From the NCBI GenBank assembly GCA_947475245.1, contig CANJLW010000026.1, forward strand, positions 1 to 59,246: a stretch of 59,246 bases of DNA. The letters run 5' to 3'. Below the pieces are notes generated by a model. That model was not told the origin of the DNA and searched no databases. It was given only the letters and a program-made list of their open reading frames with translations. Source of the stretch: Acetobacteraceae bacterium. Lineage in GTDB: Bacteria > Pseudomonadota > Alphaproteobacteria > Acetobacterales > Acetobacteraceae. Within the stretch, counting starts at the first letter, position 1. The number at the start of each line of letters is the position of its first letter. Position numbers and translations under genes: made by a program. Positions 46,714 through 50,518 of the stretch are shown here, piece by piece.

Positions 46714-47565
46714 ATGACCGTCATCGCCGATCTTGCTCGTCCCTTATTCTTCGAGCGGAATGTAACTTTGTCGCATGGTTTGCGGACGAAATCGGCGTTC
46801 GATCTGGCCTTGTATCCCGCGATGGGGCGACGCGACGTCGGCGTGCTGATCGCCACGGTCATCGGTGTCGTCGAGTTTATCGACGGTGAGGAACAATACG
46901 AATACGAGGTCTATAAGAAAAAATTTCCCGACCTGGTTGCGCCCGCCTCGCAGTTTTTTAACCCAGCGTTTCCGCGCAAATGGGGTGCCGGCGAAAAGCA
47001 GGTGTTTATCTCCGAAGGCAATGCGATCGTTTCAAGGGTCTGGAGCGGCCGGCACATCCTGACACCGTCGAACGATATGACGGAGATGAAGAAAATCCAT
47101 GTCCAGGTCGACTGCCATTTGAAACAAGGCTGGGGTCTGCACAGTCACTGGAACGTCGCGGTTAAAAAATATCCGCCGTTTTATAAAACCCGCAGTTTCG
47201 TGCGGGCGGGCACCGCGGGCGCGATCGATAACGGCGAGGTCAACCTCAACATGATCGATATCTACCCGGAGGATCTGGGCGGTCCCACGAAATTCGTCAC
47301 GATCGCGCATGAGTTCGGCCACGTCCTCGGTATGCGCGACGAATATCTGGAAGGTACGGTCCCCGCCGACGTGCCGTGGTTCGTCAGCGATACCGCCAGC
47401 ATCATGAATCGCGGCAATGTCGTGCGTCCCCGCCACTACGTGCTGTTCGCCACCTGGCTCGACAAGGCGTTCCGCAACGGCACCTTGCTGCGCGGCCTGA
47501 CCCCGGGTTGGCGGGTCGGGGAATTCCCGCCCTTCACCACCGTCGCCAACGCGGGCATCGGTTGA
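46714..47565 (+). CDS. Metzincin-like zinc metalloprotease, no signal peptide
   Basis: A 283-residue protein with H-E-F-G-H-V-L-G-M-R-D at 199-209, the extended metzincin zinc motif HExxHxxGxxD in which His199, His203 and Asp209 would be the metal ligands and Glu200 the base. A Met-turn-like S-I-M-N follows at 229-232. These features resemble the snapalysin-type Asp-ending subgroup. The N-terminal 190 residues have no recognised domain and contain a Lys/Tyr-rich segment (EYEVYKKKF). There is no signal peptide or propeptide, unusual for a metzincin. The gene is less GC-rich than neighbours in places. It stands alone between NfeD and a small hypothetical gene. Protease activity is inferred. Confidence 0.65.
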   Translation: MTVIADLARPLFFERNVTLSHGLRTKSAFDLALYPAMGRRDVGVLIATVIGVVEFIDGEEQYEYEVYKKKFPDLVAPASQFFNPAFPRKWGAGEKQVFISEGNAIVSRVWSGRHILTPSNDMTEMKKIHVQVDCHLKQGWGLHSHWNVAVKKYPPFYKTRSFVRAGTAGAIDNGEVNLNMIDIYPEDLGGPTKFVTIAHEFGHVLGMRDEYLEGTVPADVPWFVSDTASIMNRGNVVRPRHYVLFATWLDKAFRNGTLLRGLTPGWRVGEFPPFTTVANAGIG

Positions 47566-47635: not shown

Positions 47636-48007
47636 ATGAGCGACCTGTTCGCGCCGCCCGGCGGCTGGCGTGTGCGCATTCTCGATATGTCGGGCGGCGC
47701 TCAGGATAACATCGTCGAAGACATCGCGGGCTTTCCCACGCTGATGCAGGCCAACGCCTTCGCACGCCGCTATGTCCGTGATTCCGTGGAACTCTGCCGC
47801 GGGGCGGGGCTGTCGACCAAGCAGGTGTTGGAGGCCTGGTTCGCGTTCGGCGAAGACGCGGTCGTGCTCGACGCCGACGAAGGCGGCTGGAAAAGCGCCA
47901 ACGAGCTGGGCGATTTCGTCGATACCCCGGCGGGGGCGGAGGAACGCAACTGGCGCGCCTTGGATCCCAGGCGCGACGATCCGGATGACGACGAGCCCGA
48001 CGCATGA
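47636..48007 (+). CDS. Small conserved-looking hypothetical protein coupled to gltX-like gene
   Basis: A 123-residue cytoplasmic protein. The first half is mixed alpha/beta (GWRVRILDMSG, ANAFARRYVRDSVE), with a middle FGEDAVVLDADEGGWKSA, and the C-terminus is a very acidic tail (DPRRDDPDDDEPDA). No family is recognised with certainty. Its stop overlaps the start of the gltX-like gene by four bases, so the two are translated together, which makes a functional connection plausible. The upstream gap of 70 bp may hold the promoter for both. Confidence 0.7.
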   Translation: MSDLFAPPGGWRVRILDMSGGAQDNIVEDIAGFPTLMQANAFARRYVRDSVELCRGAGLSTKQVLEAWFAFGEDAVVLDADEGGWKSANELGDFVDTPAGAEERNWRALDPRRDDPDDDEPDA

Positions 48008-49344
48008 TCCGCGTCCGCTTCGCGCCCAGCCCGCACGGCCATCTGTTCGTCAGTGGCGCGCGGGTCGCGTTGATGAATTTTCTGCATGCGCGCCGGCACA
48101 AGGGTCACTTGCTGCTGCGCTTTGACGACACCGACCGGGACCGCAGCAAGCCTGCCTATACCGAATCGATCCTGCACGATCTGCGCTGGTTGGGCATTGC
48201 CTGGGACGAAACCTTCAACCAGTCCGACCGGTTATCGCTCTACGAGGAAGCGGCCCAAAGCCTGATCGCCGCCGGTCGGGTGTATCCTTGCTTTGAAAGC
48301 CCGGAAGAGCTGCGCGCCAAGCAGGATTTCCGCGTCAAGCGCGGGCAATCTCCGGTCTACGATCGGGCCATGCTGCGCCTGACGCCGGAACAGCGGGCGG
48401 CGGCGGAAGCCGGCGGTAAGAAGCCGCATTGGCGGTTCCGCCTGTCCAACCGCACCCTCGAATGGCCCGACATCGTCCTTGGTCCTCGGCAGGCCAAACT
48501 GCCGGCGGTGTCCGATCCGATCCTGATCCGGGCCGACGGCTCCGTCGCGCCGATGCTGGCCAGCGTGGTCGACGACATGGCGAGCGGCATCACGCACGTC
48601 ATCCGCGCGGAGGACAACGCCGCGAATACGGGCATTCAGATCGAGCTGTTTTCCGCCCTTGGGATGGACCCGTCGCGGCTGACGTTTGGGCATCTGCCGC
48701 CGCTGGGCGGGGCGGAAGGGAAAGCGGCGGGGCTTGCCGGTCGCATCGGTTCGATGTCGATCCGCGCCTTGCGCGGCGACGGCGTGCAAGCGAGCGCGAT
48801 CGTGGCATGTCTGGCGCAACCGGTGTCGCAGACCCGGGTCAAGCCGGGGCCGACGGCGGGGTTGGCGGAGCATTTCATGCTGTCGTCGCTGTCGCGGACG
48901 AATGCAAAGTTCGATACGGCGAACCTGCTGCGCGTCAACCGAGAGGTCTTGCGGACGACCGATTTTGCCGACGTCGCCGATCGTCTGCCGAGCGGGGCGA
49001 CGGAGGCGTTTTGGGGGGCGGTGCGGGGGCATATTGATCTGTTGAATGAGGCGCGCGGCTGGTGGGATGTCGTGTCCGGAACGATCGTGCCGCCGGAGAT
49101 GGAGGACGAACGCGCGTTCCTGCGTCTTGCGGAGGAGTCTCTGCCCGCGGAGCCTTGGGATGGCGATGTGTGGTCGGCCTGGCTGGCGGCCCTGCGCGAG
49201 TCGACGGGGCGGAGCGGCGGGGCGCTGATCACGCCGTTGCGTCTGGCGCTGACCGGGGAAGAGCAGGGGCCGGATCTGGCCGATCTGCTGCCCCTGATCG
49301 GTCGCGCGCGCGCGGTCGGTCGCCTGGGAGTGGCATCGGGTTAG
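48004..49344 (+). CDS. Glutamyl-tRNA synthetase paralogue with degenerate ATP-binding motifs
   Basis: A 446-residue protein with the full GluRS layout: N-terminal class I Rossmann domain, and an anticodon-binding helical domain after about residue 290. It aligns in order with the alphaproteobacterial GltX type through FAPSP, RFDDTDRDRSKP, YPCFES and KLPAVSDPILIRADG. However the catalytic motifs are eroded. The HIGH box, normally H-V-G-G/N, is F-V-S-G (15-18), Thr of PSPTG is His11, the R-G-E-D-H motif reads RAEDN (201-205), and KLSKR is GLAGR (243-247). The Tyr of the YTFTSVVDD segment is also lost (APMLASVVDD). The frame is intact, so this may be a non-catalytic or altered-function paralogue; a true gltX elsewhere is expected. 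Confidence 0.85.
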   Translation: MIRVRFAPSPHGHLFVSGARVALMNFLHARRHKGHLLLRFDDTDRDRSKPAYTESILHDLRWLGIAWDETFNQSDRLSLYEEAAQSLIAAGRVYPCFESPEELRAKQDFRVKRGQSPVYDRAMLRLTPEQRAAAEAGGKKPHWRFRLSNRTLEWPDIVLGPRQAKLPAVSDPILIRADGSVAPMLASVVDDMASGITHVIRAEDNAANTGIQIELFSALGMDPSRLTFGHLPPLGGAEGKAAGLAGRIGSMSIRALRGDGVQASAIVACLAQPVSQTRVKPGPTAGLAEHFMLSSLSRTNAKFDTANLLRVNREVLRTTDFADVADRLPSGATEAFWGAVRGHIDLLNEARGWWDVVSGTIVPPEMEDERAFLRLAEESLPAEPWDGDVWSAWLAALRESTGRSGGALITPLRLALTGEEQGPDLADLLPLIGRARAVGRLGVASG

Positions 49345-49354
49345 GGGGAAAGTC

Positions 49355-50518
49355 ATGCAACGCAGCACAAACCGCATTCTGACAACGCATACCGGCAGCC
49401 TGCCGCGTCCGCCGTCCCTGGTGGAACTCTACGTGCGCAAGGGACGGGGGGAACCGGTTGACGTCGAACTCGCCGAAGCCGGGCATCGCGCGATGCTGGA
49501 CGTCGTGCGGCGGCAGCAGGAAGCGGGCATCGATATCGGCAATAACGGCGAGCAGCAGCGCGAGGCGTTTTTCCTGTATGTGCGCAATCGCATGAGCGGT
49601 TTCGGCGGTGCGTGGGATCGACCGCCGCGGGGGGATGTGGATCGCTATCCCGTGTTCAAGGCCGCGCTGGCGAAGGAACAGGCGGGCATGGTCTGGGTCA
49701 GCGCGCGGGAGGCTTTGCCGACCGTGGTGGGCGACATCGCTTATCGCGATCGCGCCGAGATCGAGACGGAATGCGCCGATTTTCGCGCGACGCTGGATGC
49801 GATGGGCAATCCGTTCGTCGAACCGTTCCTGACGGCGCCGTCTCCGGGTATCGTCGCGGCGGCGATGCGGAACGATTACTACCCGGATCAGGCAAGCTAT
49901 CTGGCGGCGCTGGGGAAGGCGTTGCAGGTCGAGTATGAAGCCATCGTCGCCAAAGGCTTTCTGTTGCAGCTCGATTGTCCCGATCTGGCGATGGAACGGC
50001 ATTATACGTGGCACGAACGCCCGTTGAACGAATTCCTGGATTTCGTCGACAGTGTCGTGAAGACGATCAACGCGGCTCTGGTCAACATTCCCCGCGACAA
50101 AGTTCGGCTGCATGTGTGCTGGGGCAATTACGAAGGCCCGCACGATTGCGACGTTGAACTGCAAGAGATCATGCCGGTGCTGCGCGCGCTGAAGGTCGGC
50201 GGCTTTGTGCTGCCCTTCGCCAACCCGCGCCATGCGCACGAGTATCGGGTGCTGAAGCAGTTTCCGCTGGATCAGGATCAGATCATCGTTGCCGGTGTGA
50301 TCGATTCGGTGACGAATTTCGTCGAACATCCCGAAACCGTCGCCGAACGGATCGAGCGGGTGGTGGAGGTCGTGGGCGATCCGTCACGGGTGCAGGCGGG
50401 CACGGATTGCGGCTTCGATACCTCCGCCGGGATGCGTCGCGTGGCGTCCGACGTCGTGTGGGCGAAGCTCGCGGCGCTGAGCGCCGGTGCCCGGATCGCG
50501 TCGAAGCGGGTGTTCTGA
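49355..50518 (+). CDS. MetE-like cobalamin-independent methionine synthase II family protein
   Basis: A 387-residue protein corresponding to the C-terminal catalytic half of MetE (PF01717), without the N-terminal half, a common single-domain form. It has the N-terminal LTTHTGSLPRP motif, GNNGEQQREAFF near residue 55, the zinc-site region LHVCWGNYEGPHDCD (about 250-264), and AGTDCGF near the C-terminus with the second zinc Cys. These supply the usual His/Cys/Cys ligands. It may transfer a methyl group to a thiol using methyltetrahydrofolate or a related donor. It follows the gltX-like gene by 10 bp with GGGGGAAAG as ribosome site. Its stop is immediately followed by a convergent stop. Confidence 0.9.
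   Translation: MQRSTNRILTTHTGSLPRPPSLVELYVRKGRGEPVDVELAEAGHRAMLDVVRRQQEAGIDIGNNGEQQREAFFLYVRNRMSGFGGAWDRPPRGDVDRYPVFKAALAKEQAGMVWVSAREALPTVVGDIAYRDRAEIETECADFRATLDAMGNPFVEPFLTAPSPGIVAAAMRNDYYPDQASYLAALGKALQVEYEAIVAKGFLLQLDCPDLAMERHYTWHERPLNEFLDFVDSVVKTINAALVNIPRDKVRLHVCWGNYEGPHDCDVELQEIMPVLRALKVGGFVLPFANPRHAHEYRVLKQFPLDQDQIIVAGVIDSVTNFVEHPETVAERIERVVEVVGDPSRVQAGTDCGFDTSAGMRRVASDVVWAKLAALSAGARIASKRVF

Follow-up and report, generated by a model that had tools for sequence, protein, structure and literature searches.

A GluRS2 ortholog with eroded catalytic motifs in GlnRS-carrying Acetobacteraceae: a candidate tRNA-binding pseudo-synthetase

The 59,246-nucleotide stretch of Acetobacteraceae DNA analyzed here (contig CANJLW010000026.1 of assembly GCA_947475245.1; hereafter, the window) encodes a full-length glutamyl-tRNA synthetase (GluRS)-like protein, the product of gltX2, in which the class I catalytic motifs are eroded. 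Judging from phylogeny and locus, gltX2 derives from alphaproteobacterial GluRS2, and its erosion coincides, within the family, with the presence of glutaminyl-tRNA synthetase (GlnRS). On balance, we lean toward the interpretation that the gltX2 product is a non-catalytic, probably tRNA-binding pseudo-synthetase derived from GluRS2, the chemistry of which was made redundant by GlnRS.

The gltX2 product and its motifs

The gltX2 open reading frame starts with ATG and comprises 446 codons plus a stop codon, with zero internal stops. The gene and the elements of its product are as follows:

48004..49344, + strand: gltX2 (eroded GluRS2, pseudo-gltX2; P0001), 446 amino acids, defined by open reading frame, domain matches and tree
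48007..48813, + strand: class I GluRS catalytic domain (PF00749), residues 2-270, 178.6 bits, over the cut-off
49102..49326, + strand: anticodon-binding domain (PF19269), residues 367-441, 41.6 bits, over the cut-off
48046..48057, + strand: HIGH position, residues 15-18, FVSG replacing H-phi-G-N
48550..48552, + strand: residue 183, Pro replacing an invariant Tyr in the motif alignment
48604..48618, + strand: RGEDH position, residues 201-205, RAEDN with Arg201 kept
48730..48744, + strand: KMSKS position, residues 243-247, GLAGR replacing K-L-S-K-R

The two domains of bacterial GluRS are both present, intact HIGH and KMSKS motifs are absent (FVSG and GLAGR, respectively), and the H-phi-G-N signature of alphaproteobacterial GluRS2 is not matched by FVSG. 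Residue 183 aligns with Tyr187 of Thermus thermophilus GluRS, which we take to be a substrate contact. The product is predicted to be a full-length protein with the complete GluRS fold, in which the loop of residues 240-246 is modeled with low confidence (predicted local distance difference test score, pLDDT, <50). Its score against the bacterial GluRS equivalog model TIGR00464 is 261.2 bits, below the cut-off of 289.95; it also falls below the cut-off of the GlnRS model TIGR00440 (66.8 versus 425.8 bits) and of every GluQRS model listed, and it possesses the PF19269 domain, unlike GluQRS. Domain content and model scores thus rule out a truncated GluQRS-like or GlnRS-like gene.

The losses are common to the genus: His15, Asn18, Tyr183, His205 and Lys246 are missing from all 30 readable same-genus orthologs, and the 90%-identity cluster of the gltX2 product comprises three member sequences on eight contigs, which rules out sequencing error or chance. 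Tyr183 and Lys246 are each found in 0/30 own-genus and 0/14 other eroded sequences (none of 44) and in all 118 intact family sequences; the corresponding counts for His15 are 0/30, 8/14 and 118/118, and Asn18 occurs in 0/30 own-genus sequences. At position 246, Lys is replaced by Arg in 87% of the own genus and by Gly in the protein encoded here. The weight of the individual changes differs. Because T. thermophilus GluRS reads RAEEW at the RGEDH position, RAEDN is weak evidence and would not be inactivating alone. In KLSKR, the first K is K, P, Q or A among intact Acetobacteraceae copies, and four marine alphaproteobacterial copies (L068, L074, L075 and L080) have Gly in place of the Ser, so that Lys246 is the informative loss in the KMSKS motif. 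The HIGH His is not universal in GluRS2 either, given that L034, an alphaproteobacterial GluRS2 of another family from a genome with no GlnRS detected (G027), has QAGN replacing H-phi-G-N, with KLSKR and the other motifs intact. The KMSKS loop is absent from the eroded copies in G004, G007, G190, G066 and G152, and basic residues remain in this loop in many relatives, RLSRK being an example. Among the best 120 of 7407 database matches, own protein included, the motifs are intact in 62, eroded in 56 and mixed in 2; one of the last two, P0044, in which the His and Lys are kept and the Tyr is replaced by His, is a possible intermediate of erosion.

An earlier note on this DNA had described a GluRS architecture with the anticodon-binding half, eroded motifs, a lost Tyr and an open 446-codon frame, all of which are confirmed by the open reading frame, domain matches and alignment, and had raised the recurrence of the substitution positions in relatives, which is what the 30 same-genus orthologs display. 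Its statement that every change costs the protein a contact with ATP or the adenylate is overstated for RAEDN.

Descent from GluRS2 and co-occurrence with GlnRS

The genome harboring gltX2 (5.23 Mb in 89 contigs, 99% complete) contains four PF00749 genes, namely, GlnRS (C1), a canonical GluRS1 with HIGG, RGDDH and KLSKR motifs (contig C9), a GluQRS-like gene (C5; L004) and gltX2; GatB was found as well. With GlnRS, GluRS1 and GatB present, charging of tRNA-Glu and tRNA-Gln appears to be covered without gltX2. The presence of GluRS1 with canonical motifs rules out gltX2 as the sole GluRS of the genome.

Alphaproteobacterial relatives of the gltX2 product, at ~35-60% identity, mostly display H-phi-G-N, RGEDH and KLSKR-like motifs. 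In the available text of a published survey (PMC3927822), the H-phi-G-N motif type is assigned to GluRS2, and characterized gamma- and epsilonproteobacterial GluRS2 are reported to glutamylate tRNA-Gln. A midpoint-rooted tree gave a paraphyletic eroded set, and an outgroup-rooted tree was used instead. In this rooted tree, constructed from sequences >350 amino acids after exclusion of the motif columns and with eight sequences as the outgroup, all 42 eroded sequences group in a single, modestly supported clade (0.715) nested among the intact Acetobacteraceae sequences. Furthermore, gltX2 is nested in the GluRS2 tree, and its locus, in which it follows the conserved gene orf123, is common to intact family members. 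Together, these sequence comparisons identify gltX2 as an ortholog of alphaproteobacterial GluRS2. The earlier note had read gltX2 as a paralogue; rather than a lineage-specific spare copy, it is the GluRS2 ortholog eroded in a GlnRS-carrying clade, and GluRS1 is the second, canonical gltX that was to be looked for. Intact orthologs at the same locus, which the note had regarded as grounds for rejection, do exist outside the clade; given that GlnRS was not found in those genomes, the difference is explainable and does not amount to a refutation.

Among 150 evenly sampled Acetobacteraceae genomes, 22 have GlnRS over the cut-off; of these, 15 have an eroded GluRS2, 7 have no ortholog and none has an intact one. 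The 128 genomes without GlnRS include 117 with intact GluRS2 motifs (one of these with two copies), 2 with partial copies that are intact where readable, 1 with an eroded copy (G108) and 8 with a fragment or no ortholog, G080 and G089 being among these 8. G108, which is treated as an exception here and as eroded in the retention, tree and motif counts, has a copy that groups with that of the GlnRS carrier G116 in the rooted tree. GatB is present in 22/22 GlnRS carriers of this sample, where it probably serves Asn-tRNA formation. In G103 (L090 and L256), in which GlnRS was not detected, two GluRS2 copies were observed, with HIGH and KMSKS intact and the second motif reading RGDDH and RGADH.

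A similar picture emerges from the 33 genomes of the own genus, which share the own genome and G010 with the family sample. GlnRS is over the cut-off in 30 and in two pieces in one more, with a GlnRS match in all 23 high-quality genomes; GluRS2 is eroded in 30/30 readable cases, represented by contig-end fragments in two genomes and not found in one. An eroded GluRS2 with GlnRS not found occurs in G017 and G021 (84% and 77% complete), and GlnRS with GluRS2 not found in G002 (80% complete). The class-wide sample of 385 genomes contains 56 with GlnRS, own genome included. The 55 other carriers yielded two full-length GluRS2 and one partial copy at a contig end, with motifs intact where readable, and a C-terminal fragment in G362; in the remaining 51, there was no GluRS2 match, but only GluRS1/GluQRS-like scores or none at threshold. 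At a single threshold, GluRS2 was detected in 4/56 GlnRS carriers versus 266/329 other genomes. Thus, GlnRS usually goes with the absence of GluRS2, and retention in an eroded form is a peculiarity of the Acetobacteraceae clade.

Selection, retained residues and gene neighborhood

Because synonymous sites saturate in these GC-rich genes, the ratio of nonsynonymous to synonymous substitution rates (dN/dS) was estimated only from independent close pairs (dN <0.13); all-pair values were unusable, some of those among eroded pairs exceeding 1, with medians of 0.51 for eroded and 0.44 for intact sequences. Eight independent eroded close pairs, all from the own genus, gave dN/dS of 0.10-0.21 (median 0.14), and 23 intact close pairs gave a median of 0.13. 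Under neutrality, given the observed synonymous divergence, 8-44 nonsense changes would be expected per eroded pair; none is present. By these estimates, the eroded gltX2 of the own genus is under purifying selection rather than in simple decay, in line with what the earlier note had argued from the open frame.

Retention was assessed at 110 positions conserved at >=97% in the 118 intact sequences. Excluded from the retention and motif counts were L123 (G151, a different GluRS), the contig-end fragments L131 and L132, L254 with its split frame (G132) and the N-terminal fragment L255 (G121), whereas L116 and L125 (G072 and G157) were counted but are too short for the rooted tree. The 30 own-genus sequences keep 72 of the 110 positions at >=90%. 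Within the motif windows, which were set after per-position retention had been seen, 13 conserved positions are lost and 5 kept in the own genus; elsewhere, 7 are lost and 85 kept. In this alignment, then, residue losses are concentrated in the catalytic motifs. Fisher P values obtained in the same analysis take no account of relatedness and carry no weight here. By region, own-genus retention of well-conserved residues is 0.77 (residues 1-60), 0.85 (61-100), 0.88 (101-175, the acceptor-side insert, assigned by homology), 0.69 (176-225), 0.61 (226-270), 0.69 (271-330), 0.90 (331-380) and 0.88 (381-446), the last two regions forming the anticodon side. Arg5, Asp41, Asp42 and Arg201 each remain in >=90% of the own-genus sequences; part of the amino-acid pocket may therefore persist there.

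The neighbor shared with intact GluRS2 loci lies directly upstream:

47636..48007, + strand: orf123, 123 amino acids, conserved gene overlapping gltX2 by 4 bases (ATGA)

The orf123 product matches no Pfam or NCBIfam family over the cut-off. The gene was found at 29/30 own-genus, 13/13 other eroded and 27/28 intact loci examined, and the 4-base overlap at 25/29, 8/13 and 18/27 of the respective loci with orf123. Within the Acetobacteraceae, it precedes gltX2 at almost every locus with sufficient flanking sequence; it was found in 0/7 examined genomes of other families. Although orf123 may couple its expression with that of gltX2, it stays in G059, G149, G090 and G167, where gltX2 is gone, and hence is not dependent on GluRS2; in G128 and G182, neither gene was found. 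In G151 (L123/L269, contig C387), a GluRS stands in the usual place of GluRS2, a possible in-place replacement. Elsewhere in the window, positions 46714-47565 (+ strand) encode a protein of 283 amino acids that contains a metalloprotease-like HEFGH motif and resembles peptidase M6 only below the threshold, and positions 49355-50518 (+ strand), directly downstream of gltX2, encode a Meth_synt_2 (MetE C-terminal-like) protein, which is also found downstream at L007, L028, L257 and L263.

Competing explanations and related systems

The gltX2 product displays the hallmarks of a pseudoenzyme, namely, loss of conserved catalytic residues with the predicted fold kept, and, in the own genus, retention by selection. 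Loss of catalysis is suggested by the motifs, and a present tRNA-binding role by conservation at the level of regions. We propose that GluRS2 formerly made Glu-tRNA-Gln for GatCAB and that the arrival of GlnRS would have rendered this reaction redundant, or harmful through competition for tRNA-Gln; the ATP/adenylate site would then have been lost and a second, non-catalytic job kept. The likeliest job would be binding of tRNA-Gln or tRNA-Glu via the retained acceptor-side insert and anticodon domain, with the protein acting as a tRNA-holding, sensing or scaffolding factor beside GlnRS, GluRS1 or GatCAB. More tentatively, the gain of GlnRS might have been followed, across the whole clade, by conversion of a GluRS2 that charged tRNA-Gln into a non-catalytic tRNA-binding protein maintained by selection, with a regulatory or scaffolding role in the supply of Gln/Glu-tRNA.

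Several observations weigh against this interpretation. Seven of the 22 GlnRS carriers in the family have no ortholog (of these, G151, G167 and G182 are 73-88% complete), so that certain lineages, at least, can do without the function; the eroded copies of the GlnRS carriers G072 and G157 are only 318-327 amino acids long; and the rate of divergence, scaled by orf123, is higher for eroded than for intact copies (0.42 versus 0.28 at an orf123 distance of 0.2-0.3, with few intact pairs at closer distances). The same facts, along with the persistence of orf123 in four genomes without gltX2 and the class-wide scarcity of GluRS2 among GlnRS carriers, favor the main rival explanation, slow decay, under which GluRS2 lost its use through GlnRS and the gene is gradually disappearing, the only remaining selection being against a toxic misfolded product or for translation coupling with orf123. 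We consider slow decay, these forms of residual selection included, rather unlikely in view of the low dN/dS of the eight independent pairs, the lack of stops in them and the 72 invariant sites kept across the genus; jointly, divergence and dN/dS agree with a protein that has fewer sites under constraint rather than with one evolving neutrally. Also to be set against a selected pseudo-synthetase is that there is no close pair in the other eroded lineages, so that selection is shown for the own genus only, and that region 271-330, outside the motifs, is retained as poorly as stated above, with anticodon-side retention of just 0.79 and 0.75 in the 14 other eroded sequences. Individual genomes depart from the pattern, too: GlnRS was not found in G108 (85% complete) despite its eroded copy; the GlnRS carrier G151 has, directly downstream of orf123, another GluRS of 491 amino acids that looks intact; G080 (L271) and G089 (L275), 90% and 82% complete, keep orf123 without an adjoining GluRS2, with neither GlnRS nor GatB found, a pattern that perhaps reflects assembly gaps; and in three GlnRS carriers outside the family, the GluRS2 motifs are intact wherever they could be read. 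Finally, since most GlnRS carriers belong to a single clade, the association within the family may go back to just one event.

The prevalence of Arg in place of Lys246 among relatives leaves room for residual activity. A rebuilt site might even still activate glutamate or another substrate and modify a tRNA or protein, in the manner of GluQRS. Such an altered catalyst would be in keeping with the retention of Arg5, Asp41, Asp42 and Arg201, the basic residues persisting in the KMSKS loop of many relatives and the otherwise intact L034 without the HIGH His, but we regard it as improbable, considering that Lys246 and Tyr183 are absent from every eroded sequence counted, that the KMSKS loop is missing altogether from five genomes and that loop 240-246 is predicted with low confidence. 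A sensor of glutamate or another ligand, acting tRNA-free on GluRS1, GlnRS or another partner, as HisZ regulates HisG, appears similarly improbable: the counterparts of the retained Arg5 and Arg201 in T. thermophilus GluRS are Arg5 and Arg205, presumably glutamate contacts, but Tyr183, which we likewise assume to contact the substrate, is gone from all eroded copies counted, and the conservation of the anticodon domain would have no reason under pure glutamate sensing.

Compared with known systems, the gltX2 product resembles alphaproteobacterial GluRS2 (PMC3927822) in two-domain architecture and length, and both the tree and, within the family, the locus mark it as an ortholog, but it has lost the catalytic motifs and coexists with GlnRS. 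The available text of that survey reports GluRS2 and GlnRS together only for two Mesorhizobium and six epsilonproteobacteria, without mention of motif erosion in them. The nearest inactive GluRS, Thermotoga maritima GluRS2, is likewise a second full-length GluRS, described in the same text as inactive and charging neither tRNA-Glu nor tRNA-Gln; unlike gltX2, however, it is reported there to have originated by catalytic-domain duplication and to have an H-phi-G-G motif, and it is not linked to GlnRS. Records on this protein are not uniform, the PDB entries 3afh and 3al0 for T. maritima GluRS 2 being titled as a non-discriminating GluRS with a glutamyl-AMP analog and a glutamine transamidosome. 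GluQRS/YadB is also a GluRS-derived paralogue outside canonical charging, but, according to the available text of PMC9437257, is devoid of the anticodon domain and keeps catalysis, and a separate GluQRS-like gene exists in this genome. HisZ and SLIMP, aminoacyl-tRNA synthetase descendants with non-charging roles (HisZ having no adenylation activity), differ in being derived from HisRS and SerRS, respectively; in the same text, YadB is the only GluRS paralogue in the table of synthetase-like proteins. Our paper searches, confined to open-licence PMC, turned up no description of a pseudo-GluRS2 or of the Acetobacteraceae case, which does not prove novelty.

Several eroded proteins are labeled glutamyl-tRNA synthetase in the source databases, so that annotation and pathway models may overcount charging enzymes. 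If the proposed conversion is true, GluRS2 would have had a second, non-catalytic job all along, one not replaceable by GlnRS. The Acetobacteraceae clade offers a natural experiment in replacing one route to Gln-tRNA by another, one that would separate the catalysis of a synthetase from its other function and make that function testable by comparing relatives that still have the gene with those that have lost it.
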